NCBI GenBank assembly: GCA_003138485.1
Contig: PLGF01000083.1
Span: 33,163 to 97,162, forward strand
Source: Verrucomicrobiales bacterium
GTDB taxonomy: Bacteria > Verrucomicrobiota > Verrucomicrobiia > Limisphaerales > Palsa-1400
Reading direction: 5' to 3'
DNA length: 64,000 nucleotides
The notes under the pieces were generated by a model. It ran no database searches. It saw only the letters and a list, made by a program, of their open reading frames with translations, and was not told the origin of the DNA. This document shows, one piece after another, positions 50,112-64,000 of this stretch. The first letter of the stretch is position 1; every line of letters begins with the position of its first letter. The position numbers and the translations under genes are program-made.

Positions 50112-50456
50112 TCAAGTGTCCACTTCCATCGAAGCCAGCTCCAATTCGCGGCCGGCGCGGAGTTCGCCGCTGGGGTTGTGGCAATCGGGGCATTCGGAAT
50201 AAAGGTTGGCGGAGACAAATTCCCGGCGGCAGGCGGCGCACCAGAATCGCGCCGGCACTTCCTCTATGGTCAATACCGCCCCCTGGGCGCAGGTCCCGTC
50301 GGTGACGGCTTCGAAGGCGAAGCGAAGGGCGTCGGGCACGACGCCGCTCAGAGCGCCGACGCGGAGGCGGATTTCATGGACGCGCGTGGCCCCGGCCTGG
50401 CGGGCTTCGCGCAAAACCTGGCTGATGGCGCTTTGCATGATGGAATACTCATGCAT
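50112..50456 (-). CDS. hypA: hydrogenase maturation nickel metallochaperone HypA
   Basis: [11 protein letters not shown]...; CAAC...CPDC zinc site; downstream of hydrogenase genes. Confidence 0.93.
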
Positions 50457-50461
50457 CCGCG

Positions 50462-50998
50462 CTAAATTTTCTCCGCCTTTTCATAGACAACCATCTCACC
50501 CTCGCCGCGGAGGTCGGAGGGATGGTAGCGCGGGATGGGCATTTGCAATTGCTTGAATTCGACCGGCGACACTTTTTTGTCCACCAGGCCGACGGCCACG
50601 GCGACGCCGTAGATGATGGCTTCAGGGCGCGGCGGGCAGCCTGGGATGTAGAAGTTGACGGGGATGACTTTTTCAACCGGGCCGAGCACGGGGTAGGAAT
50701 CGTGCCAGATGCCGCCGCCGCAGGCGCAGCCGCCGATGGCAAAGACGAGCTTGGGAGCGGGCATGGCGTCATAGGCGCAACGCAGGGCGCGCGCGGTGGA
50801 GCGCATGGCCGGCCCCTGGCAGAGCATGACGTCGGCGTGCCGCGGGGAGCCGACCAGCTTGATGCCGAAGCGCTCGACATCATAGTAGGGAGTCAGGACA
50901 TTGAGGACCTCGATGTCGCAGCCGTTGCAGCCGCCGCTATTGGCATGGTAAACCCAGAGTGAGCGGCCGAACATTTTCTGGCAAAGATTTCTCAGCAT
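50462..50998 (-). CDS. group 4 [NiFe]-hydrogenase small subunit (HycG/HyfI/NuoB-like)
   Basis: HANSGGCNGCDIEVL; FAIGGCACGGGIWHDSYPVLG; YIPGCPPRPEAIIYG. Confidence 0.9.
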   Translation of the reverse strand: MLRNLCQKMFGRSLWVYHANSGGCNGCDIEVLNVLTPYYDVERFGIKLVGSPRHADVMLCQGPAMRSTARALRCAYDAMPAPKLVFAIGGCACGGGIWHDSYPVLGPVEKVIPVNFYIPGCPPRPEAIIYGVAVAVGLVDKKVSPVEFKQLQMPIPRYHPSDLRGEGEMVVYEKAEKI

Positions 50999-51003
50999 GG
51001 GGT

Positions 51004-51528
51004 TTAATCCAGTTCGATTTTGATGTCATCGACCAGCGGTTCGGATTCCAGGAAGGAGCGGGAGCGGAAAATCCAGCGTTCGTTTTCCAGATCGTCAAAG
51101 CGGTAGCCCTTCAGCTTGAGCTGTTCCAGGGGCGAGGTTTCCTTGAAACAACGGCCGCACCGCTGGCAGGTGCTCATAAACAAATCCAGGCGCTGATGCA
51201 CGTCGCTGATCTTGTTGGTGGCGGTTTCAAACTCGTGGCTCATGGTGATGGCTTTCTCCGGGCAGACATCCGAGCAGCGTCCGCAGTAGGTGCAGCGGCG
51301 GCCCAGGTATTTGAGGATGCGAACTTCCTGGCAGACATCGAGCACGAGGATTTCGCGGGCCGGACAGTTGTTGGCGCAGGCGGCGCAGCCGATGCATTTC
51401 TGGGCGTCGAAGATGGGCCGACCGCGGAAGTTCTCCGGCACGGGCCGCGGGTGGGCGGGGTAATCAAGGGTGACGCGGCCGGCTTTGAGGCCGACCATCG
51501 CTTCTTTGAATTTGCTTGTCAGGGACAT
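51004..51528 (-). CDS. 4Fe-4S ferredoxin subunit (HycF/HyfH/NuoI-like)
   Basis: CIGCAACANNCP, CTYCGRCSDVCPEKAI, additional CQRCGRC; start at 51528. Confidence 0.9.
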   Translation of the reverse strand: MSLTSKFKEAMVGLKAGRVTLDYPAHPRPVPENFRGRPIFDAQKCIGCAACANNCPAREILVLDVCQEVRILKYLGRRCTYCGRCSDVCPEKAITMSHEFETATNKISDVHQRLDLFMSTCQRCGRCFKETSPLEQLKLKGYRFDDLENERWIFRSRSFLESEPLVDDIKIELD

Positions 51529-51541
51529 GATAGCATCTCCA

Positions 51542-52468
51542 TCAATGACCGTAACCCGCCAGAGCCAGCGCCGCGAAGGCCACGACGAGCAGGCCGGCGA
51601 AGTAACGGAGGGCCTGGTCAATCCGGTAGCGGGCGTGGGTCGCGGCGACGGCCGTGACGACCAGGACGATGACCAGCACTTTGGCCCAGAAGAGCAGCCA
51701 GCCCAACGGGAAAGGCAGGCCCGATCCCCACGGCACAAAGAGCGCCGCGAACAACGCGCTGTGAATGACCAGCCGCGCCATCTGCGCGTACTTGAACAGC
51801 GCCAGCTTGGGGCCGGAGTATTCCATCAGCGGCCCTTCCATTATTTCCGTCTCGGCCTCGGATATGTCAAAGGGCACCCGCTGGACAAAGGCCTGGAAAG
51901 ACAGCCCCATCACCACCAGCAAAATCAAGCCCGACCACGGAATGCCTGGCACGGCATAAACCGAGCCGTTCAAGACGGCGTCGAGCCGGAAGGACCCCGC
52001 GTGGACCGCGCCGGCAAGAAGAGCGATGGCAAACAAAGGCTCCAAGGCGATCATTGTCATCATCTCCCGGCCGATGCCCAAGAGCGAATAAGTCGATCCC
52101 GCCGCCAGGCCGCCGAGCAGTGTGCATATCCCGCAGAGGGTCAGCAGGTAGATGAGGAGAATGATGTCGCCCGCGCCATTCATGGGGGCGGGAAAGCCCA
52201 TGGGCACCAGGCAGGCGGTCGTCAGCGCCGCGGCCAGCGCGAGCCGGGCGACAAATCGTTGCAGGGCGGGTGATTCGCCCGATTCAATGTCCTCCTTGCC
52301 CAGAAGCTTGAGCAGGTCGAAGTAGGGCTGCCAGAGGGGCGGACCGCGGCGCGATTGCAGACACGCGGTGACCTTGCGCAGGATGCCTTCGCACAACGGC
52401 GCGATGAGCAGGACCACGACGACGTTGGCCAACCCGCCCGCAATCATCCGAATGACGTTAGGATTCAT
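51542..52468 (-). CDS. hydrogenase membrane subunit (HycD/HyfC/NuoH-like)
   Basis: LLIAPLCEGILRKVTACLQSRRGPPLWQPYFDLLKLLGKE; PFDISEAETEIMEGPLMEYSG. Confidence 0.92.
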   Translation of the reverse strand: MNPNVIRMIAGGLANVVVVLLIAPLCEGILRKVTACLQSRRGPPLWQPYFDLLKLLGKEDIESGESPALQRFVARLALAAALTTACLVPMGFPAPMNGAGDIILLIYLLTLCGICTLLGGLAAGSTYSLLGIGREMMTMIALEPLFAIALLAGAVHAGSFRLDAVLNGSVYAVPGIPWSGLILLVVMGLSFQAFVQRVPFDISEAETEIMEGPLMEYSGPKLALFKYAQMARLVIHSALFAALFVPWGSGLPFPLGWLLFWAKVLVIVLVVTAVAATHARYRIDQALRYFAGLLVVAFAALALAGYGH

Positions 52469-54170
52469 CTGACTCCTTTGCGGATGACTCCGCGGCAATC
52501 CCCCTGGCGCGCGCCAGCTTGAGCAATTCCTCCGGGGACCAGACCTTGACGGCGCCCGAGCGGAGGTCGATGGTTTCGAGGCGGTCCGTGCAGGAGAAGC
52601 ACGGGTCGATGCTGCCCAGGGAAATGGTCATGTCGGCCAGTTGCTGGTCCTTGATCATGGCGGGAACGCCCTGGAGGTTCTGATAGGTGGGGGCGCGCAC
52701 GCGCCAGCGGCGCGGGCGGTTGTTCTCGCCGGTGATGACGAAATGATGGCACTCGCCGCGCGGCGCTTCGACCGAAGAGATGCCCAGGCGGCCGACGGGC
52801 AGTTCGTCCTTGATCTCCAACTGGATCGGGCCGCTTTCCATTTTGTCCAGGCATTGGCGGATGATTTTGATTGACTCAAACACTTCGCGCGCCCGCACCA
52901 CCAGGCGCGACCAGACGTCGCCGTCGGGGGCGGTGATGACATCGAAGTCCACGCGGTCATAAGCGGCGTAGGGGTGGTCGCGGCGGCAATCAATCCCGAC
53001 GCCCGCCGCGCGCGCCACCGGGCCGATCAGCCCGGCTTCCTTGACAAGATTGCGGTCGGCGACGCCGACGCCGCGGGTGCGCTTCTGGATGTTGCGGTCC
53101 TGGAGCACGGCGGCGGTGACGGCCTGCCATTCGGTTTCGAGGCGGGCGAGCACCTGGCGGAGTTCGTCTTCCAACGCGGGCGTCAAATCCCGGCGGACGC
53201 CGCCGATGACGCAGAGGCCGTAGGTCTTGCGGTTGCCGGTGATTTTCTCGGCAATCCACATGACCGGTTCGCGAATGCGGAAGGCTTGCATGAACAAAGT
53301 GTCAAAGCCGACGATGTGGCAGGCCAGGCCGACCCAGAGGAGGTGGCTGTGAAGGCGTTCGAGTTCGAGGAGGATGGAGCGGAGGTACTCGGCGCGCGGC
53401 GGGGCCTGCAAGGCGGCGGCGGCTTCGACGGCCTGCGCGTAGGTGACATTATGCACGCAGCCGCAGATGCCGCAGATGCGCTCGGCCATGATCGGGATGT
53501 CGTTGTAGCCCAGAACGGACTCGGCCAGTTTCTCGATGCCGCGATGGACCATGAAGCCGCGGTATTCGCAGCCGCGCACCCGCTCCCCTTCGACGTAGAG
53601 CCGGAAATGGGCAGGCTCGTCGAGGGTGGGATGAAACGGGCCGAAGGGCACGACCGTGCAACCCTCCGGCGGTTCGTCGAACTTGAATTCGCGCTCGTCA
53701 TCGTAGTCATCGGGGACGAAATTCCACGGAATGTCCTTGCGCAGCGGGTGGACCCCATCGGGCCAGCCGTCCGGCAGGACCAGGCGTTTCGGATACGGGT
53801 GGCCGGACAGTTCGATTCCGACCAGATCGCGCAATTCGCGCTCGGCCCAGTTGGCCGCCGGCACGACCGTCGAGATGCTCTCCACACAGGGTTGGCTGGC
53901 GGGAATTTCGGTCAGGATGCTGCAAAGCAGGTGGTCGCGATCAAACGCGAAATTGTGCGCCACCAGGAACGAGCCGGAAAACGACCGGTCATCCGCGCCA
54001 ATGCTCGTGATGAAACGGGCATCCAGGTCGCGAAAAACGTATTCGCAGACGGCCTTCAGCGCGGACGCTTCGACGAAGACAAACAAGCAATGATCCGAGG
54101 GGATATCCGCCCGCCGGATGGCGGGGCCTAACTTCGCCTTCAACTGATCGAGTTTTTCGCGCGCCTTCAT
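52458..54170 (-). CDS. group 4 [NiFe]-hydrogenase large subunit, NuoC-NuoD fusion (HycE/HyfG-like)
   Basis: L1 motif RICGICGCVH (53451-53480) and L2 motif DPCFSCTDR (52581-52607); N-terminal NuoC-like domain. Confidence 0.93.
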   Translation of the reverse strand: MKAREKLDQLKAKLGPAIRRADIPSDHCLFVFVEASALKAVCEYVFRDLDARFITSIGADDRSFSGSFLVAHNFAFDRDHLLCSILTEIPASQPCVESISTVVPAANWAERELRDLVGIELSGHPYPKRLVLPDGWPDGVHPLRKDIPWNFVPDDYDDEREFKFDEPPEGCTVVPFGPFHPTLDEPAHFRLYVEGERVRGCEYRGFMVHRGIEKLAESVLGYNDIPIMAERICGICGCVHNVTYAQAVEAAAALQAPPRAEYLRSILLELERLHSHLLWVGLACHIVGFDTLFMQAFRIREPVMWIAEKITGNRKTYGLCVIGGVRRDLTPALEDELRQVLARLETEWQAVTAAVLQDRNIQKRTRGVGVADRNLVKEAGLIGPVARAAGVGIDCRRDHPYAAYDRVDFDVITAPDGDVWSRLVVRAREVFESIKIIRQCLDKMESGPIQLEIKDELPVGRLGISSVEAPRGECHHFVITGENNRPRRWRVRAPTYQNLQGVPAMIKDQQLADMTISLGSIDPCFSCTDRLETIDLRSGAVKVWSPEELLKLARARGIAAESSAKESDES

Positions 54171-54171
54171 T

Positions 54172-56100
54172 TCAGTGTTCTTTCGGGGCGGCGGAATTCA
54201 CGGACGGCGCCGGGGGCGCGCCGCCGAGCCAGCGGAAATAACGTTTGATCTCGCCGTAATAGCCATGCGCCACGTAGCGGTTACATTCGGCTTCGCGCGC
54301 GTAACCGCAAAGCCACGGAGGCGCGGCGCGGCTGGGAGCGGCGCCGAGCCTTGAAATGAACCGGGCCGCCAGAAACGCCAGCCCCAGGACGGCCAGCAAC
54401 GCCAGCGGAACGAAGATTGAATGCGACTCGACCCCGGAAAGGCCGGTCCATAGGCCGCCGGAGAATGCCGGGGCGCCGCCAAGGGTCTTGCCAAAGCCTT
54501 GCGGGCTTGCCGCCAGCGCGGCATGGACGAGGCCGTAACCAATGGCTGGCATGATCCCGAACATCAGGCAGATCAGCGCCAGCAACAGTTGGGGCATTTG
54601 CATCATCGCGCCAACTTCAAGCCGTCCCCGGCCCGCCGCCCTCTCCTTGACCAGCGCGCTGGTGCGCGAAAGGAAACTTGCGCCAAAGAACTTCACGAAA
54701 GAAGCCAGGGTCAGCGCGCTCGTCAGAATGGCAATGGCGGCGCAGACCGACAGATAGCCCGCCAGACTGCTGCCTTGCACCGTCGCGACGTAAATGGTCC
54801 ATTTGCTGGCGAAGCCGCTGAAGAGCGGGACGCCCGAAATGGACAGGGAAGCAACCAGCGCCGTGGCGGCCGTCAGAGGCATATACTTGAGCAATCCACC
54901 CATCTTATTCAAGTCCTGCGTGCCCGTGGCGTGCAGCATGGAGCCGGCATTGAGGAACAGGAGCGCCTTGAAGACGCCGTGGTTGAGGGTGTGAAAAAGC
55001 GCGCCGATCATGGCCAGCGCCGCCAACGAGGCCGCCGCCGGACCCGCCGCCGGCAGGAGGGCCATGCAGGCCCCAAAACCGAGGAGGATGTAGCCGACCT
55101 GGCCGATGCTGTGGAAGGCCAGCAGCCGCTTGGTCTGCTCCTGCTTGAGCGCCTGCATCGTGCCGGTGAAGAGCGAAATCGTCCCAAGCGCCGCCACCAC
55201 CAGGCCCCAGCGGGCCAGGGGAAAGTCGGCCTGCCCGCCGGCGGGCACCAGCCACAGGAAATAACGCATCACGCCATAGACCCCGGTCTTGATCATCACA
55301 CCGGAGAGCATCGCGCTTACGGGCGACGGCGCCGCCGGGTGCGCGTCCGGCAACCACACCTGGCCGAAGGGCCACATCCCCATCTTGATGCCAAAACCGG
55401 CCAGGAACAGCCCGAATGCCAACGCCGCCAATACGGGTTGCGCGTGCAGCAAAGCCGGCAGGTTCGCGCTGACGGTGTCAAAGTCGTACTTCACCCCGGC
55501 GCTGGAATTGGCGGATGCGCCCGCGCCAGCCAGAATTTCCGCGCCGATAAGGGTCGCCGCGCAAGCTATTTGCATCATCAGCAGGAACTTGTTGGCCGCC
55601 CGGACGTTCTCCGGTTTCTTGTGCTCGAATCGGATGAGCGCGTAGCCGGGCAGGGTCATCATCTGCCAGAAAATGAAGAAAAACCACATCATGTCCGTCG
55701 TGCTCAACAGTCCGTACATCGCCGCCAGAAACAGGAGAAAATAAGGATAATACCGGGCAACGCCATACTCCGCGTAATGCTTCATATAGGCGATGGAATA
55801 AAACGAAGCCGGCACAGCGATCAGAGCCGCCAGCATCAGGAACAGCGCGGTCAACCCGTCCACATGCAGACGCAAGGCGAATCCGATGGAAGGCACTTTG
55901 CAAAACACTTCGGAGCCGGCGGAGGCGCCGCCAGCCAGCACCGTCGCCACGGCGATGAAGATCAGCGTCGAAGTCGCGGCCGTTACCAGGAAGGCGATCC
56001 ACCCTGCCAGCGTCCGGTTCCGCGCGGTAAGCAACGTCAGCGCCGCTCCGGCGACGCAGATGAGAATGGAGGCGAATACCGCCTGTTCGGGAGTCATCAT
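54172..56100 (-). CDS. proton-translocating membrane subunit (HycC/HyfB/NuoL-M-like)
   Basis: LPDAHPAAPSPVSAMLSGVMIKTGVYGVMRY; KRLLAFHSIGQVGYILLGFG; LFHTLNHGVFKALLFLNAGSM. Confidence 0.92.
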   Translation of the reverse strand: MMTPEQAVFASILICVAGAALTLLTARNRTLAGWIAFLVTAATSTLIFIAVATVLAGGASAGSEVFCKVPSIGFALRLHVDGLTALFLMLAALIAVPASFYSIAYMKHYAEYGVARYYPYFLLFLAAMYGLLSTTDMMWFFFIFWQMMTLPGYALIRFEHKKPENVRAANKFLLMMQIACAATLIGAEILAGAGASANSSAGVKYDFDTVSANLPALLHAQPVLAALAFGLFLAGFGIKMGMWPFGQVWLPDAHPAAPSPVSAMLSGVMIKTGVYGVMRYFLWLVPAGGQADFPLARWGLVVAALGTISLFTGTMQALKQEQTKRLLAFHSIGQVGYILLGFGACMALLPAAGPAAASLAALAMIGALFHTLNHGVFKALLFLNAGSMLHATGTQDLNKMGGLLKYMPLTAATALVASLSISGVPLFSGFASKWTIYVATVQGSSLAGYLSVCAAIAILTSALTLASFVKFFGASFLSRTSALVKERAAGRGRLEVGAMMQMPQLLLALICLMFGIMPAIGYGLVHAALAASPQGFGKTLGGAPAFSGGLWTGLSGVESHSIFVPLALLAVLGLAFLAARFISRLGAAPSRAAPPWLCGYAREAECNRYVAHGYYGEIKRYFRWLGGAPPAPSVNSAAPKEH

Positions 56101-56585
56101 GATCGTGCTCCTTCGCTGACGACACTGCCAATGAGGGCGGTGAGTATGGCCAGGGTCGCCCGGATGGCGGGCGAAAGAGCGGGCGAGGGTTTCAAGGACG
56201 CCGGTTGCGCGCCCAGGAGCCAGACCCGCGTTTTGCCGCCGGTTTCAACGCACTTGGCCAGCGTTCCAAGGGAAAGGTTGTGGGTGGAAATCTGCGGGAA
56301 ACGCGCCGCCATCTCCTCCGAACTCAGGAAAACCGTCGAACCGGGCGCCGCGCCAATGTCCACTGCGTCCAGGAAAACCAGGTGGTCAAATCCTGTGCCG
56401 GCACAGCTCGTCACCAGCCGCTCTGGATCGGTACCGGCGACGACCACGTCGGGCACGCCGGCGCGGGTCAGAGCCTCCGCCAGCCGCACTCCGAAGCCGT
56501 CGTCGCCGCCTTGGACGTTGCCCAGCCCCATGAAACAAACACGGCCCCGAAGGGCTGACTGAAGTTGTTGGCACAAGTCGGGCAT
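56097..56585 (-). CDS. hydrogenase maturation protease (HycI/HyaD family)
   Basis: FMGLGNVQGGDDGFGVRLAEAL; HLVFLDAVDIGAAPG. Confidence 0.85.
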   Translation of the reverse strand: MPDLCQQLQSALRGRVCFMGLGNVQGGDDGFGVRLAEALTRAGVPDVVVAGTDPERLVTSCAGTGFDHLVFLDAVDIGAAPGSTVFLSSEEMAARFPQISTHNLSLGTLAKCVETGGKTRVWLLGAQPASLKPSPALSPAIRATLAILTALIGSVVSEGARS

Positions 56586-57433
56586 CAGATGTCCTCCCCA
56601 AGCTTTTTGATTTGTTCGTACGTGAAAACGGGGCCGTCCACGCATATATAGGCGACGCCGATGCAGCAATGGCCGCACTTGCCGACGCCGCATTTCATGT
56701 AGCGCTCGAGAGTGGACATGATGTGGTTTTCCTTGAAGCCCAGCGCCAGCAGGTCCTTGATGACGAAGCGGAACATGACCGGCGGCCCGCAGACAAAGGC
56801 GGTGGTGTTGTCCACCGGCATGTCCACGCCGCTCTTCTTGAAAAGGCTGCCAACGACGCCGACGTGGCCGTCCCAGCCGTTGGCGGCGCGATCCACGGTG
56901 AGATGACACTCCATGGCGCCGCCCTTCTCCCAGGCGCGCAAGTCTGTCAAGTACATCAATTCGCCGGGCGTTTTCGCGCCGTAAAACACCTGGATCCGAC
57001 CATACTTCGCCCGGTTTTGCAGCGCATAGACGATGCAGGAGCGCAGGGGAATCAGCCCGATGCCGCCCGCGACGAAGGTGAGGTTCCTGCCTTCGTATTC
57101 CTCCATGGGAAAGCCGTTGCCGTAAGGGCCGCGCACGGCGAACTTGTCGCGCGGCTTGAGTTGATGGAGCGCGGAGGTGCAACTGCCGACCTGGCGGATG
57201 GTGAAGAAGGTTTCCTCCTCGGTCGGGCTGGGGGGAAGGGAGGCCGGGAATTCGCCGACGCCGAAAAGGGAAACCTGGGCGAACTGTCCGGGGCGGAAGT
57301 GTTTGAACTTCGCCTGCTCGGCCGGGTCCTCGAATCGCCAGTAAAATGTCTTTACCTCGGGGATGTCGTCCACCACCCGGTCCAGGACCGCCAGCTTGGG
57401 CAGATAAATATTCTCAGTGTTGGGCGGGTTCAT
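56585..57433 (-). CDS. FAD/NAD(P)-binding, [2Fe-2S] flavoprotein (AsrB/sulfhydrogenase gamma/HydG-like)
   Basis: FRPGQFAQVSLFGVGEFPASL; VAGGIGLIPLRSCI; C-term MKCGVGKCGHCCIGVAYICVDGPVFTYEQI. Confidence 0.9.
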   Translation of the reverse strand: MNPPNTENIYLPKLAVLDRVVDDIPEVKTFYWRFEDPAEQAKFKHFRPGQFAQVSLFGVGEFPASLPPSPTEEETFFTIRQVGSCTSALHQLKPRDKFAVRGPYGNGFPMEEYEGRNLTFVAGGIGLIPLRSCIVYALQNRAKYGRIQVFYGAKTPGELMYLTDLRAWEKGGAMECHLTVDRAANGWDGHVGVVGSLFKKSGVDMPVDNTTAFVCGPPVMFRFVIKDLLALGFKENHIMSTLERYMKCGVGKCGHCCIGVAYICVDGPVFTYEQIKKLGEDI

Positions 57434-58505
57434 TTTTCGGCGGTTCAGGCGCGGCGCGCCGGATCATTTCGACGATGCTGGGCATTCCAATGTCTCCGTG
57501 GCAAACGGCGGCGCAACGGCCGCAGCCCACGCAAGCGACAGCCAGTTCGCGCTGGATAAAGTATTGAGCCAGCTTGCGGAAAAAGCGGCGGTTGCGGCGG
57601 TCATGCACGGCGCGGCGGGGATTGAAACCGCCCGCCATCCGCGTGAAACCGCTCAGGCCGCAGGAATCCCAGATGCGCACGCGCTCGACTTCCTCCGGCC
57701 CCACCTGGCGGTCGGAAACGGTGAAACAGGTGCAGGCCGGACAGACATAAGTGCAGCCACCGCATTCCAGGCAGCGGTTGCCGATTTCCTCCCAAGTCTT
57801 TTCCAGAATCGTCCCCTGCGAAACATAGCGGACGGTGGCGGTAAACCAGCTCGTGGTGGTTCCAAAACGTTTGCGCACCTCCGCCAGAATGGCGCGCCGG
57901 CGTTCGACGCACGCGCCGGTTCCCTTGCGGAATATCGGCTCGGAGAAAAGCTCTTCGCCGGCCGCCGTTCCGGCCACGGCCATGAATTGCCCGTCGCCAA
58001 GGTCCATGAGCTGCAAATCAAAATGCTCCCGCGCCGCGGGGCCGGTGTCGGCGCACAGGCAGAAGCAGTCGTTGCCGATGTCCTGCGCCGGGTCGGTGCA
58101 GACCATGTTCACCAAAAAGAGGTTCTTGCGCCGCCGCTCGTAATAGACATCCCGGTAATCGCGTCCGAGGTAGAACCGGTCCAGATGCCACAGGCCCGCA
58201 ACGTCGCAGGAGCGGATGCCGAAGATCGCGCGCGGGGGCGCCTCGCAAGCCGGTTCAATGGTCATCGCGCCGTTCTTCCCGTGAACTCTCATCAACCGCT
58301 CAATGTGCGGAAAGACAAACCGCTTGGGCGGGTAATACGGATTGGGCAGATGAAGCCGCACCTGAGCGCGGTTCTCGTCCGTGACGGTGTCGAAATAGCT
58401 GTCGCGGCCCCGGCCGCAGAAGGGCGCGATAACTTCCCGGCCCCGCGCGCGGAGCAGGTCCACGATCTTCAGAACGTTCCCACTGTCAATCAGACGCGCC
58501 TTCAT
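57414..58505 (-). CDS. 4Fe-4S dicluster protein (AsrA/sulfhydrogenase beta/HydB-like)
   Basis: CLECGGCTYVCPACTCF...CVGCGRCAAVCHGDIGMP; AIFGIRSCDVAGLWHLDRFYLG. Confidence 0.88.
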   Translation of the reverse strand: MKARLIDSGNVLKIVDLLRARGREVIAPFCGRGRDSYFDTVTDENRAQVRLHLPNPYYPPKRFVFPHIERLMRVHGKNGAMTIEPACEAPPRAIFGIRSCDVAGLWHLDRFYLGRDYRDVYYERRRKNLFLVNMVCTDPAQDIGNDCFCLCADTGPAAREHFDLQLMDLGDGQFMAVAGTAAGEELFSEPIFRKGTGACVERRRAILAEVRKRFGTTTSWFTATVRYVSQGTILEKTWEEIGNRCLECGGCTYVCPACTCFTVSDRQVGPEEVERVRIWDSCGLSGFTRMAGGFNPRRAVHDRRNRRFFRKLAQYFIQRELAVACVGCGRCAAVCHGDIGMPSIVEMIRRAAPEPPKNEPAQH

Positions 58506-60523
58506 GATGCCCCCGCTTCCAGGCGCACCGGAACGACCGAGCCGCCGCCGGCCGCGCCGAGTATCTCCCGTTTTAATTGCCGCACGAAGTACGGCACAAA
58601 CGCCGTCCCGCCCCGAACTTCGGGCGTCACCCGCGCCGTGGAGGAGAGCGAGCCGCCGGCGGTGCTCAGGCGGATGCGTCCGCCGTCCCGGATGCCGAGG
58701 CGCTTGGCGTCATCGGTGTTGATCTCGACGAAACCGTCCGGATAATCCAGCAACAGGAGACGGTATTCGCGCTTCAATGTTTCGCTGTGTCTGATGAGGA
58801 CATTCTGGTGCCAGTAATAGAGCGAATGGCCGAACACCAGGGTGAAGGGGTATCCGTCCGGATTGCCCGCCGATTTGGGCGGGCGGACGACGGGAGCAAA
58901 TTTGAAGGGGCGGCTCATTTGATCATCGGCAAACAGGAAGCGGGTTCCCAGAGGGCGGTCAGTCGTGCAGGGCCATTGGCGGCCGTAATCGCGGGCGAGG
59001 TTCTCATGGCTGGCGCCGCTGTAGAAGGGGATGACCGTCCCGATCTCCTGCATGACATCCGCGGCGGATTGATAATTCCAATTGGCCCCCATGGCGCGGG
59101 CCAGGCGCGTCAATTGCTCCCAGGCGGGCATCGGTCCCTCGGGCGGGTCAATCACCCGTTCAGCGAGTTGAATCCGCCTCTCAGTGCTTGTGAAGGTGAC
59201 GCGCTCTTCGCCAAATACCGTCGTCGGCAGCACCACATCGGCGAACTCCGCCGAATCAGTCATGAACAGATGCTGCACCACCACCAGCTCGCATCGCCGC
59301 ATCGCTTCGGCGGCGTCCCCGAAGAACGCCGTGCTAACGGGGTCATAACGCCCCAGCCAGAGCGCCTTCAGCGGCGTGGGACCGCCGCCAAAGAGCGTCT
59401 CGGCGCCCACTCCGGGCACGGCGGGCACCTTCGCTCCCCAGACGCTTTCCAACGCGGCGCGCGCCCCGGCATCCGTGACGGGCTGATAGCCCGGCAAGCG
59501 GTCCGGCAGCATCCCCATGTCACACACACCTTGCAAATTATTATGCTCCGCCAGCGGAAACACTCCCGCCCCTTCTTTTCCCAGGTTGCCGGTCAGCAGC
59601 GCCAGATTGATGATCGCCCGGATGCTGTCCTCGTCGCGCGCTTCAATCCCGGTCGAGTATAGGATCGCCGCCGTCCGCGCCCGGCCATAGGCCAGAGCCG
59701 CCGCCTCGATCAACTCCGCCGGCACGCCGCATCCTTCGGCGGCCTGCAGCAGGTCGTACTCCCGTGCGCGGGCCAGAAAAGCATCGCATCCCTCGCAGCG
59801 GGCTTTGATGAAGGGCAGATTCATCAGCCCGCGGTCCACGATGACCTTTGCGAGCGCGCCGTACAGGAGAGATTCAGTGCCCGGTTTGATCTGCAAAAAA
59901 ATGTCGGCGTTTTCCGCGATCCGATGACGGCGGGAATCAACGACGATGAGCCGGGCGCCGTTGAGCTTGGCGCGAATGACCCAGCCGCCGATGGTGGGCA
60001 ACTGCCGGGCAAGGTCAACGCCATCGACAATGATGACGCCGCTGCGGGCCAGTTCGCCGATGGAGTTGGAGCTGGCGGGGACGCCGGTCATTTCCAGCAG
60101 GACGTTCAAGGAGTTGTTGCAATAGACGCCGGCGCCGTGATCCACGTTGTTGGTGCCGATGATGGCGCGGGCCAGCTTCTGCAGGAGGTATGCCTCCTCG
60201 TTGGAGCAGCGCGGCGAATCCAGGAAGGCGACAGATTCGGGGCCGTATTGGTCGCGGATTCTTTTGAGCCGGGGGGCGACGAAATCGAACGCCTCATCCC
60301 AGGAGACTTTTTCAAACCGGCCGTCCTTCTTGATCAAGGGGCTGGTGAGGCGGTCCGGGGAACTGGCCACTTCATGCACGTGCCAGCCGCGGACGCAAAT
60401 CTTCCCGCTGTTGGCGGGATGAGACATGCTCGGATACACCCCTACGATTTTGTTCCCGGCGGTTTCCAGGTAGATACCACAACCGGTGCCACAGAAAGTG
60501 CAGGTGGTGAGCTGGGGGAGCAT
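58502..60523 (-). CDS. FdhF-like molybdopterin oxidoreductase with N-terminal [4Fe-4S]
   Basis: CTFCGTGCGIYLE...GKICVRGWHVHE; NNVDHGAGVYCNNSLNVLLEMTGVPASSNSIGEL; C-terminal molydopterin dinucleotide-binding domain. Confidence 0.88.
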   Translation of the reverse strand: MLPQLTTCTFCGTGCGIYLETAGNKIVGVYPSMSHPANSGKICVRGWHVHEVASSPDRLTSPLIKKDGRFEKVSWDEAFDFVAPRLKRIRDQYGPESVAFLDSPRCSNEEAYLLQKLARAIIGTNNVDHGAGVYCNNSLNVLLEMTGVPASSNSIGELARSGVIIVDGVDLARQLPTIGGWVIRAKLNGARLIVVDSRRHRIAENADIFLQIKPGTESLLYGALAKVIVDRGLMNLPFIKARCEGCDAFLARAREYDLLQAAEGCGVPAELIEAAALAYGRARTAAILYSTGIEARDEDSIRAIINLALLTGNLGKEGAGVFPLAEHNNLQGVCDMGMLPDRLPGYQPVTDAGARAALESVWGAKVPAVPGVGAETLFGGGPTPLKALWLGRYDPVSTAFFGDAAEAMRRCELVVVQHLFMTDSAEFADVVLPTTVFGEERVTFTSTERRIQLAERVIDPPEGPMPAWEQLTRLARAMGANWNYQSAADVMQEIGTVIPFYSGASHENLARDYGRQWPCTTDRPLGTRFLFADDQMSRPFKFAPVVRPPKSAGNPDGYPFTLVFGHSLYYWHQNVLIRHSETLKREYRLLLLDYPDGFVEINTDDAKRLGIRDGGRIRLSTAGGSLSSTARVTPEVRGGTAFVPYFVRQLKREILGAAGGGSVVPVRLEAGAS

Positions 60524-60533
60524 GATATGGAAA

Positions 60534-61544
60534 TCAAGGCGGACCCGCGGACGCCTGGCGGTAGCCAGTCAGGGCGCGCATGTATTGCGCCCGCTCAAAG
60601 GCGGAGGGGTTGGCGCAGTTGATCTGGCTGAGGCTCCCCTTGAGCTGGCCCACCGACTCAAACTTGCATTTCTCCATCCACGCCGCCAGATCGCGCTCGA
60701 TGGTGCGGATCTGCCGGATGCCGTCGCGCAACAGCACCGCGCACAACATGGTTGCATCCGCTCCCGCCAGGAGGAGCTTGAGCACGTCGGCGCCGCTGTA
60801 CACACCGCTGGTTGCCGCCAGGCTCGCATCCGTATGGCCAAAGAGAAGCGCTATCCAGCGCAGCGGCAGCCGCAGGGCCGACGGAGAGCTTGGCACGATG
60901 TTGGGGGTGATCTCCAGCGTTTCCAGATCAATATCGGGCTGATAAAACCGGTTGAACAACACCAAGCCGTCGGCCCCGGCCTCATCGAGCCGCGCCGCGA
61001 AGTTGGCAAAGTTGGTGAAGAACGGGCTTAATTTCACGGCCACCGGAATCTTCACTTCCGCGCTCACGTCGCGCACGATTTGCAGGTACTTCCCTTCGAT
61101 GTCCGCCGCGGTTTGTTTCGCGTCGGCCGGGATGTTATAGATGTTCAGCTCAATCGCATCGGCGCCAGCCACCTCGATGTCGCGGGCGTATTTGGTCCAG
61201 CCGCCCGACGAGCAGGCGTTCAAGCTGGCGATCACCGGGATGCCGACGGAGCGCTTGGCGCGCTCGACGTGGGCAAGGTATTCCTGCGGCTCCAGGTTGA
61301 ATTCCTCCGGTTCGGGGAAGTAACTCAACGACTCCGCGAAACTGGAAGTGCCCCGCTCCAGGCTCTCCTCAACATCCAGGCGGTCCCTGAGCAACTGCTC
61401 CTCGAACAACGAATACAGCACGACGGCCGACGCGCCTGCGTCCTCCATTCGTTTGATGTTGTCAAGCTGCTGCGAAAGCGGCGAGGCCGAGCAGACCAAC
61501 GGCGTGCGCAGCTTGAGTCCCAGATAGGTGGTAGTCAGGTCCAT
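60534..61544 (-). CDS. dihydroorotate dehydrogenase-like protein
   Basis: DLTTTYLGLKLRTPLVCSASPLSQQLDNIKRMEDAGASAVVLYSLFEEQ; TIM-barrel FMN family; adjacent to PFOR. Confidence 0.85.
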   Translation of the reverse strand: MDLTTTYLGLKLRTPLVCSASPLSQQLDNIKRMEDAGASAVVLYSLFEEQLLRDRLDVEESLERGTSSFAESLSYFPEPEEFNLEPQEYLAHVERAKRSVGIPVIASLNACSSGGWTKYARDIEVAGADAIELNIYNIPADAKQTAADIEGKYLQIVRDVSAEVKIPVAVKLSPFFTNFANFAARLDEAGADGLVLFNRFYQPDIDLETLEITPNIVPSSPSALRLPLRWIALLFGHTDASLAATSGVYSGADVLKLLLAGADATMLCAVLLRDGIRQIRTIERDLAAWMEKCKFESVGQLKGSLSQINCANPSAFERAQYMRALTGYRQASAGPP

Positions 61545-61570: not shown

Positions 61571-64000
61571 CTAGGCGGATGGCTGCACAGGGATGGTGAT
61601 TTTTGGCTCGACCGGCGTGGCGGGCTCCACCTTGAGCGTGCGGCTCTGCATGAACTGGTAGAATTTCCGCCGGCTATCGACATCGGACTGCGCCCGTGCG
61701 AACAATTGGCGCGCGGCGTCCGGCTTGCTCATGGTGAGCATCTTGAAGCGGTTTTCCGAGAGCAGATAATCCTTGATAGGCGCCTTGGGCGGCGGAGAGT
61801 CCAATTGCAGCGGATTCTCGCCGAGATCGGCCCGGCGGGGATCATAACGGTAAAGAAGCCACTGTCCGCAATCAACGGCCAGCTTTTGCTGGCGCGCTCC
61901 CACGCCGATGTCCACCGCGATGCCGTGTGCAATGCAATGGCTGTAAGCCATGATGAGGGACGGGCCGGGATAGGACTCCGCCTCGACAAAGGCCTTGAGG
62001 GTCTGATCATCCTTGGCCCCCATCGCCACGCTGGCGACGTACACGTTGCCGTAGGCCATCGCGATGAGGCCAAGGTCCTTCTTGCAGCCCGGCTTGCCGC
62101 CGGCCGCGAATTTGGCGACCGCTCCGCGCGGGGTGGCCTTGGACATCTGTCCGCCGGTGTTGGAATAGACCTCCGTATCAAGCACAAGCACATTGACCTT
62201 CCGTCCGCTGGCCAGCACATGATCCAGCCCGCCGTAGCCGATGTCGTAGGCCCAGCCGTCGCCGCCGATGATCCAAACGCTCTTCTTGACGAGATTATCG
62301 GCCAGGCTCAGGAGCAGGCGCGCTTCGGGAGAACCGAGCGCCTGCAACTTCTGCTTCAAGACGGCCACGCGCTCGCGCTGTTCGGCAATCCCCGTCTCGT
62401 CAGCCTGGTTGGAATGCAAGAGTTGGTTGGCGAGATCATCGCCGATCGTGCCGGCCAGTTTGATCACCAGTTCCTGCGCCATGTCCCTTTGCTTGTCCAG
62501 CGAAACGCGGAAGCCCATGCCGAATTCGGCGTTGTCCTCAAACAAGGAATTGCACCAAGTCGGCCCGCGGCCCTGGGCATCCTTCGCGTAAGGCGTGGTG
62601 GGGAGGTTGCCGCCGTAGATGGATGAGCAGCCAGTCGCGTTGGCGATGACGGCCCGGTCGCCGAACAACTGGGTCAGCAGCTTCAAATAAGGAGTCTCGC
62701 CGCAGCCGGCGCACGCGCCCGAAAACTCGAAGAGCGGCTGCATGATCTGCTGTTGCCGCAATTGGGACGTGTTGATCTTGCGCCGGTCCATTTCCGGCAG
62801 GCCGAGGAAAAACTTCCAGTTCTCCCGTTCGGACACGCGCAGCGGCTCCTGCGCCGCCATGTTGATCGCCTTGCGCTTGCTCTCCTTCTTGTCACGGGCG
62901 GGGCAGACTTCGATGCAGAGCGAGCACCCGGTGCAATCCTCGGCGGCGACTTGCAGGACAAAGCGCATGCCTTTCCATTCCGGCGCGCGGGCGGCGGCGG
63001 ATTTGAACGTGGCGGGCGCTCCATCCATCTGCGCCGCGTCGCAGACTTTGGCGCGAATGGTGGCGTGAGGGCAAATGGTCGTGCATTTGAGGCATTGGAT
63101 GCAAATCGCCTCGTTCCAGACGGGTATCTCCAGGGCGAGATTCCGCTTTTCAAACTGCGCGGTCGCCGTCGGAAACGTTCCGTCGCGCGGGAACGCGCTG
63201 ACGGGCAGGTCGTCGCCGCGTCCGGCGGCCAGAGTTCCCAGAACGTTCCGCACGAACGGCGGGGCGTCCGGCGTGATGGGCGGCAAATAGCCGCCCGTGC
63301 CATTGACCTTGCTGGTCAGGGGCACTTCAAAGAGGTTGGCCAGGGTGTTGTCCACCGCCTTGAGGTTCTTCTGCACCACCTCTTCCCCCTTGCGCCCGTA
63401 GGTCTTCTTGATCGATTTCTTGATGGCTTCGATCGCCTCGTCCTTGGGCAGCACGCCCGAAAGCGCAAAGAAACAGACCTGCATGACGGTGTTGATGCGC
63501 CCGCCCATCCCGCTGCCGTGCGCCACGCTCGTGGCGTCAATTACGAAGAACCGCGCCTTCCGGTCCACCAGCGCCTGCTGCACCGGGGTTGGAAGGCGGG
63601 GCCAGATTTCGTCGCGCGACAAGGGCGAATTGAGCAGGAACGTGCCGCCGGGCACCAAGTCCCGCAGCATGTCGTAGCGCTCCAGGAAGCCGGGCTGGTG
63701 GCAGGCGACAAAATTCGCGCGTGTGATTAAATAGCTGGATCGGATTTGCTGCCGGCCGAAGCGCAGGTGCGACACGGTCATGGAGCCGGATTTCTTGGAG
63801 TCATAGACAAAATAGCCCTGGGCGCAATAGGGGGTGTTCTCACCTATGATTTTGATCGAGTTCTTGTTGGCGCCCACCGTGCCGTCAGCACCAAGCCCGT
63901 AGAAGAGCGCCCGGACTACGTCATCGGGTTCGGTCGAGAATTCCGCGTCCACCGGGAGGCTGGTGAAGGAGACGTCGTCGTTGATGCCGACGGTGAAATG
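61571..64000 (-). CDS. nifJ: pyruvate:ferredoxin (flavodoxin) oxidoreductase, C-terminal part; continues beyond window
   Basis: CIQCLKCTTICPHATIRAK, CTGCSLCIEVCPARD, CAGCGETPYLKLLTQLFGDRAVIANATGCSSIYGGNLPTTPY; frame open to 64000 (HFTVGINDDVSFTSLPVDAEF). Confidence 0.94.
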   Translation of the reverse strand, partial: HFTVGINDDVSFTSLPVDAEFSTEPDDVVRALFYGLGADGTVGANKNSIKIIGENTPYCAQGYFVYDSKKSGSMTVSHLRFGRQQIRSSYLITRANFVACHQPGFLERYDMLRDLVPGGTFLLNSPLSRDEIWPRLPTPVQQALVDRKARFFVIDATSVAHGSGMGGRINTVMQVCFFALSGVLPKDEAIEAIKKSIKKTYGRKGEEVVQKNLKAVDNTLANLFEVPLTSKVNGTGGYLPPITPDAPPFVRNVLGTLAAGRGDDLPVSAFPRDGTFPTATAQFEKRNLALEIPVWNEAICIQCLKCTTICPHATIRAKVCDAAQMDGAPATFKSAAARAPEWKGMRFVLQVAAEDCTGCSLCIEVCPARDKKESKRKAINMAAQEPLRVSERENWKFFLGLPEMDRRKINTSQLRQQQIMQPLFEFSGACAGCGETPYLKLLTQLFGDRAVIANATGCSSIYGGNLPTTPYAKDAQGRGPTWCNSLFEDNAEFGMGFRVSLDKQRDMAQELVIKLAGTIGDDLANQLLHSNQADETGIAEQRERVAVLKQKLQALGSPEARLLLSLADNLVKKSVWIIGGDGWAYDIGYGGLDHVLASGRKVNVLVLDTEVYSNTGGQMSKATPRGAVAKFAAGGKPGCKKDLGLIAMAYGNVYVASVAMGAKDDQTLKAFVEAESYPGPSLIMAYSHCIAHGIAVDIGVGARQQKLAVDCGQWLLYRYDPRRADLGENPLQLDSPPPKAPIKDYLLSENRFKMLTMSKPDAARQLFARAQSDVDSRRKFYQFMQSRTLKVEPATPVEPKITIPVQPSA

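Follow-up and report, generated by a model that had tools for sequence, protein, structure and literature searches.

Within the 64,000-nucleotide stretch of Verrucomicrobiales bacterium contig PLGF01000083.1 analysed here (the window), positions 50112–60523 hold ten consecutive minus-strand genes, separated by tiny gaps or overlaps, which encode a Hyc-like membrane [NiFe]-hydrogenase joined to a flavin and iron-sulfur (Fe-S) subunit pair of the group 3b/AsrAB type and to a subunit resembling the formate dehydrogenase FdhF. Both the ten genes and this combination had been proposed in an earlier interpretation made without database searches (the sequence-only reading); the open reading frames (ORFs) of the window and scans with NCBIfam and Pfam models bear this out, and each name is supported. 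The run begins with the FdhF-like subunit (58502–60523, 673 aa), a protein of formate dehydrogenase fold in which the [4Fe-4S] cysteines are present and the catalytic selenocysteine (Sec) or Cys, His, and Arg are gone; it scores 557.7 bits with the formate dehydrogenase alpha model TIGR01591, which is under the model cut-off of 666, and far less, 110.5 bits, with the NuoG model. It is followed by an AsrA/HydB-like Fe-S subunit (57414–58505; ShyB 142, HydB 134, AsrA 118 bits) and an AsrB/HydG-like FAD/NAD(P)/[2Fe-2S] subunit (56585–57433; PRK08345 252, ShyC 215, AsrB 196 bits); the top scores of these two proteins are to the beta and gamma models of hydrogenases of the group 3b type.

The remaining genes form the hydrogenase proper: a HycI-type maturation protease (56097–56570), which would act on the C-terminal extension of HyfG; a single antiporter-like membrane subunit, HyfB/HycC (54172–56100; PF00361); the HyfG/HycE-like [NiFe] large subunit with a fused NuoC domain and a C-terminal extension of approximately 40 residues (52458–54170); the NuoH-like membrane subunit HyfC/HycD (51542–52468; PF00146), for which an alternative upstream TTG start at 52498 is possible; the two-[4Fe-4S] subunit HyfH/HycF (51004–51567), whose conserved start is probably near 51528; the NuoB-like proximal-cluster subunit HyfI/HycG (50462–50998); and the nickel chaperone HypA (50112–50456). 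The features that define group 4 [NiFe]-hydrogenases are present, that is, both Ni-binding CxxC motifs together with NuoH-like and antiporter-like membrane subunits. The CGIC and DPCFSC motifs of HyfG are intact in the window; in their longer form (RICGICGCVH and DPCFSCTDR) they do not vary among 11 aligned sequences, and across 63 they are conserved to at least 98%. HyfG is 40% identical to E. coli HycE, and the HyfG proteins of the operon are monophyletic (ultrafast bootstrap, UFBoot, 100). Phylogenetic placement of the large subunit, which had been suggested as a check, groups them with E. coli HycE/HyfG (UFBoot 99) in a tree with few references, namely E. coli HycE and HyfG, Mbh, and other complex I family members from the same order. 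In HyfH, the C-terminal CxxCxxC (C134, C137, C140) is invariant, and the second Cys pair corresponding to the metal site of HycF (Cys155/158; PMC9474812) is lacking.

Nine orthologous loci from other families of the same Verrucomicrobiota order are untruncated, and all of them keep the gene order FdhF-like, AsrA, AsrB, HycI, HyfB (one or two copies), HyfG, HyfC, HyfH, HyfI. A wider scan with one genome per species gave 66 named loci. FdhF, AsrA, and AsrB occur together in 46 of the 47 loci which have at least 8.5 kb upstream of hyfG, which is the co-occurrence that the sequence-only reading had asked for; the sole exception, L108, has FdhF and AsrB but no AsrA ORF was scored there, and several other of its genes are broken up. 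HyfC, HyfH, and HyfI are found in every locus with enough downstream sequence (54/54). Such an order is far beyond chance. Also as anticipated, the usual HycB is absent, no homolog being detected across the 66 loci (E 0.01). The loci belong mainly to Verrucomicrobiota, Terriglobia and other Acidobacteriota, and Aminicenantes/Saccharicenans; a few are labelled Methylomirabilota, Omnitrophota, Planctomycetes/Phycisphaerae, Lentisphaerae, Spirochaetes, or Methylacidiphilum, labels which can be wrong for draft bins. In six or more loci, HyfB is encoded by a tandem pair of genes. The proposed ten-gene unit has to be redrawn at both ends: a block of nine genes is conserved, HypA lies within it only in the window and in the nearest relative, L056, and the same-strand run continues upstream into a dihydroorotate dehydrogenase-like (DHOD-like) gene (60534–61544), some 11 bases from the start of the FdhF-like gene, and past it into a pyruvate:ferredoxin oxidoreductase (PFOR) gene (61571–63952 and beyond). 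These DHOD-like and PFOR neighbors are outside the conserved block; in none of the 66 relatives is PFOR adjacent. A response-regulator gene recurs near the operon in 16 loci (L062, L077, L092, L095, and Aminicenantes loci included), with NtrC-like sequence in the representative examined.

The suggested link of the hydrogenase to NAD(P)H is plausible from the features of the flavin and Fe-S pair. AsrB retains the FAD/NAD(P)-binding region and four [2Fe-2S] cysteines, and 15 cysteines of AsrA, those of the dicluster domain included, are invariant in 61 aligned sequences; a FAD/NAD(P)-binding [2Fe-2S] gamma subunit with an Fe-S beta subunit is the domain composition of group 3b enzymes. Flavin-based bifurcation, which had been considered as well, is disfavored, as the single FAD protein that family scans recognize in the operon is of the PyrK/AsrB type, and none of the subunits is recognized as a bifurcating flavin subunit. 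A separate locus of the phylum, L173 (G178:C25, 5835–17830), bears on the role of the pair. Its genes are AsrA-AsrB-HycB-HyfC-HyfI-NuoC-HyfG-HyfB-Mrp/Mbh subunits-HyfH, with HycB being HycB/CooF-like and the Ni ligands of the group 4 hydrogenase intact, and no molybdopterin gene is present in the stretch examined. AsrAB therefore pairs with such hydrogenases independently of an FdhF-like subunit, as would be expected if electrons enter through AsrAB and do not need the FdhF-like subunit to do so. It could be argued that AsrAB and the FdhF-like protein constitute a separate oxidoreductase, soluble as are group 3b and AsrABC complexes, whose genes merely stand in one operon with those of the hydrogenase; physical association of the subunits is what we infer from the sequence. 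This is very improbable, given that the order is conserved in 46 of 47 loci, that the missing HycB needs a substitute, and that AsrA-AsrB also precede the different group 4 hydrogenase of L173. Further, across 388 genomes of the phylum, no FdhF-like match of operon-level score occurs without the hydrogenase, such independent occurrence having been proposed as the point to look for; this sample contains one operon bearer only and is a one-sided test, of the FdhF-like subunit not occurring alone, the evidence for co-occurrence being the nine same-order loci and the 66-locus scan.

The FdhF-like subunit lacks the residues with which formate dehydrogenases work. These are numbered here as in E. 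coli, which we take to be Sec140, His141, and Arg333; the Sec140 position was confirmed by an in-frame stop at codon 140 in L053. Among 59 FdhF-like subunits, position 140 is Y in 40, G in 15, F in 3, and H in 1, with Tyr and Gly distinguishing the clades, and is never Sec or Cys. Position 141 is C, S, Q, R, L, G, V, T, or A in 58 of them (His only in L110), position 333 is T, A, S, C, or M in all 59, and Lys44 is replaced by Arg; the copy in the window has Tyr at 140, Cys at 141, Ala at 333, and Arg at 44. The four [4Fe-4S] cysteines are retained across the 59 proteins, bar one Cys-to-Ser change (L093) and one incomplete copy (L116). True formate dehydrogenases of the same order served as the positive control; the residue comparison works because these retain Lys44, Cys or Sec at 140, His or Gln at 141, and Arg333, several of them with an in-frame TGA exactly at position 140. 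The next-best FdhF matches in the 388 genomes (at most 613 bits) agree, as eight of nine examined are formate dehydrogenases with K44/C140/H141/R333, the ninth (L164) being mis-framed. A catalytic set of Sec/Cys, His, and Arg is also found as Cys133-His134-Arg324 in T. onnurineus Fdh3 (PMC8965080).

The loss is confined to part of the protein. The FdhF-like proteins of the operon are monophyletic (UFBoot 100) and have true formate dehydrogenases as their sister group. Eleven of these true enzymes share 84 invariant positions, of which the larger operon clade retains 60; those lost include Lys44, the entire active-site loop 136–143, and Arg333. The fold is predicted to be intact (AlphaFold pLDDT 86.8, pTM 0.88), the model matching E. 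coli FdhH (1aa6) with a TMq of 0.86 and the FdhF of formate hydrogenlyase (7z0t) with a TMq of 0.88. Subunits of the larger clade share 56–73% identity with the window copy, a conservation which implies that the protein serves some purpose; that clade also has G-x-Y-x-N-N-S and E-(H/Q)-N-N-L-Q-G as conserved motifs. The Cys that follows the old Sec position in the window (YC) was considered as a substitute ligand but is not general, being S, G, V, T, A, or R in many relatives. Judged by its sequence, the FdhF-like subunit is not a formate dehydrogenase: the catalytic set is absent, and the fold and the N-terminal [4Fe-4S] are present.

Taken at annotation level, the operon would encode a formate hydrogenlyase (FHL), the FdhF-like subunit oxidizing formate and feeding the hydrogenase, and formate had also been listed as a possible donor in the sequence-only reading. 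The top family model (formate dehydrogenase alpha, 557.7 bits), the fold resembling that of FdhF in FHL, and the grouping of the hydrogenase part with HycE/HyfG would all agree with this, but it is scarcely credible in view of the loss of Sec/Cys140 and Arg333 in 59 of 59 subunits and of His141 in 58, where true enzymes of the order retain them. HycB, the partner of FdhF in FHL, is missing, and the genes for molybdenum cofactor (MoCo) synthesis point the same way. MoaA (PF06463), MoeA (PF03453), and MoaC (PF01967) are not detectable in the window's genome, nor was any other formate dehydrogenase found there; its only other protein of molybdopterin fold (PF00384) is NuoG. Of the 11 genomes of the order that bear the operon, eight, the window's included, are without each of the three MoCo genes, and the other three genomes have all of them. 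MoaA and MoeA are both missing in these 8/11 versus 6/47 genomes of the order without the operon (Fisher p = 1.8e-4), and in 16 of 50 further operon-bearing genomes.

A different possibility is that the FdhF-like subunit is still a molybdenum or tungsten enzyme, with a new substrate and with the Tyr or Gly site as a new active site. The two motifs conserved in the larger clade, and the presence of MoaA and MoeA in many Terriglobia and Aminicenantes hosts, speak for it. We nevertheless regard it as unlikely; identical motifs occur in genomes with and without MoaA, MoeA, and MoaC, the residue after position 140 varies as listed above (His included) and position 140 itself is Tyr in one clade and Gly in another, neither of which resembles an active site, and sister locus L173 does without any such gene.

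Taken together, we think it reasonably probable, reading from sequence, that the product of the operon is an energy-converting, NAD(P)H-linked membrane group 4 [NiFe]-hydrogenase of the Hyc/Hyf lineage by which formate is no longer used. Electrons from NAD(P)H would enter at the FAD and [2Fe-2S] of the AsrB-like subunit, and the Fe-S clusters of the AsrA-like subunit would be the wire from the flavin subunit to the hydrogenase arm, on a route which may or may not include the single [4Fe-4S] of the FdhF-like subunit. From there, they would pass via HyfH and HyfI to the Ni-Fe site of HyfG, where protons would be reduced, and this reduction would be coupled through HyfC to HyfB. The direction toward H2 would be taken when partners hold H2 low; reversal to NAD(P)+ reduction, paid for by the ion gradient, is possible. 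The FdhF-like subunit would be a former formate dehydrogenase that lost its molybdenum site and was kept as a structural or Fe-S subunit, parallel to NuoG. The gene set and its conservation, the intact Ni ligands, the lost catalytic residues, and the lack of MoCo genes in many hosts are observed; complex formation, donor, electron order, direction, and ion pumping we infer from the genes. Several points weigh against this assignment.

First, NAD(P)H can drive H2 formation only at very low H2 or at the expense of the ion gradient, the reaction being uphill otherwise; for this reason a contribution of ferredoxin is plausible, and PFOR is encoded just upstream of the operon in this genome. Second, the MoCo result comes from draft genomes, of which some are near relatives of one another and the window's has a completeness of 89.67%, although joint loss of three genes by draft gaps alone is hard to explain; Terriglobia and most Aminicenantes genomes that bear the operon do have MoaA and MoeA, and in these hosts a role for molybdenum is not excluded. 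Third, the affinity of HyfG to group 4a is likely, but it comes from a tree with thin reference sampling. A further explanation is that the enzyme is driven by ferredoxin, or confurcates ferredoxin and NAD(P)H, with the FdhF-like [4Fe-4S] or AsrA as the port. Besides the upstream PFOR, it could draw on the use of ferredoxin as donor by group 4 enzymes of the Mbh/Ech type (HydDB, PMC5037454) and on the exchange of electrons with ferredoxin by a catalytic FdhA subunit alone (PMC8965080). As PFOR adjacency is seen in 0/66 relatives, and the operon has a single AsrB-type flavoprotein and no recognized bifurcating flavin subunit, this explanation is held to be possible yet rather doubtful.

The window's genome (G000) encodes further hydrogenases at G000:C94 (L044), G000:C55 (L161), and G000:C11 (L156): a second group 4 enzyme, a HoxEFUYH-type group 3d set, which is what the HoxH-like locus proved to be, and a group 1-like [NiFe] large subunit. 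AsrAB might have been taken over from a group 3b enzyme encoded elsewhere in this genome, but no other AsrAB or FdhF match was present in the four other hydrogenase regions examined. Six genomes of the order have Ehr-like complexes, in which a HyfG-like large subunit devoid of Ni-binding cysteines is encoded beside several antiporter-like genes (G000:C82 (L043), L047–L050, and L052).

No characterized hydrogenase subtype with this gene set was found in the literature, nor was any report on a Saccharicenans hydrogenase or on His141/Arg333 by residue name. The nearest published system, from 2019, is the group 4 hydrogenase locus of Saganbacteria RX5A, there termed “enigmatic” (PMC6349859), which likewise has asrA, asrB, and a molybdopterin protein that is formate-dehydrogenase-like but not identifiable as a formate dehydrogenase; unlike the operon here, it also has cooF and Mrp-like subunits, and L173 resembles it except for having no molybdopterin gene. 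What is new beyond that account is that two clades have lost the catalytic residues, that MoCo genes are missing, that conservation is both strict and wide, that the hydrogenase is placed next to Hyc/Hyf, and that a sister locus has no FdhF-like subunit. Family-based annotation would make the operon a formate hydrogenlyase and predict formate-driven H2 formation in Verrucomicrobiota, Acidobacteriota, and Aminicenantes, which the sequence evidence contradicts; if the NAD(P)H-linked assignment is true, the bearers, which come from bogs, groundwater, and sediments, would share a widespread, membrane-coupled route to H2.

Like E. coli FHL-1 (hydrogenase-3, HycBCDEFG plus FdhF; HydDB group 4a), the operon has a HyfG with fused NuoC, one HyfB/HycC-type and one HyfC/HycD membrane subunit, HyfH/HyfI, the HycI protease, and a subunit of FdhF fold. 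It differs from FHL-1 in having AsrA/AsrB and no HycB/HyfA Fe-S linker, in the FdhF-like subunit being devoid of catalytic residues, and in the lack of the second HycF metal-site Cys pair in HyfH. The AsrA/AsrB-like proteins are of the same families as the beta and gamma subunits of the group 3b NADP-linked hydrogenase/P. furiosus sulfhydrogenase I and as AsrA/AsrB of anaerobic sulfite reductase, and are closest to the hydrogenase versions rather than to those of sulfite reductase; unlike those systems, the hydrogenase here is group 4 and membrane-bound, and neither group 3b alpha/delta nor AsrC is present.

The N-module of complex I (NuoEFG) likewise combines NAD(P)H input with a molybdopterin-fold subunit without a Mo site on a homologous membrane core. 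AsrAB are not NuoEF, however, the acceptor would be protons in the operon's enzyme and is quinone in complex I, and the FdhF-like subunit is far nearer to formate dehydrogenase than to NuoG. NDUFS1/NuoG is related to molybdopterin enzymes such as FdhF, and a structural study of FHL concludes that FdhF and NDUFS1 were probably recruited separately to their respective complexes (PMC9474812). The parallel would thus be an analogy of route, not homology of module. Whether an FHL-type hydrogenase had its Fe-S linker swapped for AsrAB while its FdhF lost molybdenum and became NuoG-like, giving an independent counterpart of the NADH-input module of complex I, we judge to be an evenly balanced matter. 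If so, the operon would be a second, living example of what has been proposed for the origin of complex I, where a subunit resembling formate dehydrogenase gave up its molybdenum site and the complex gained an NADH module; it would also allow this parallel to be tested.

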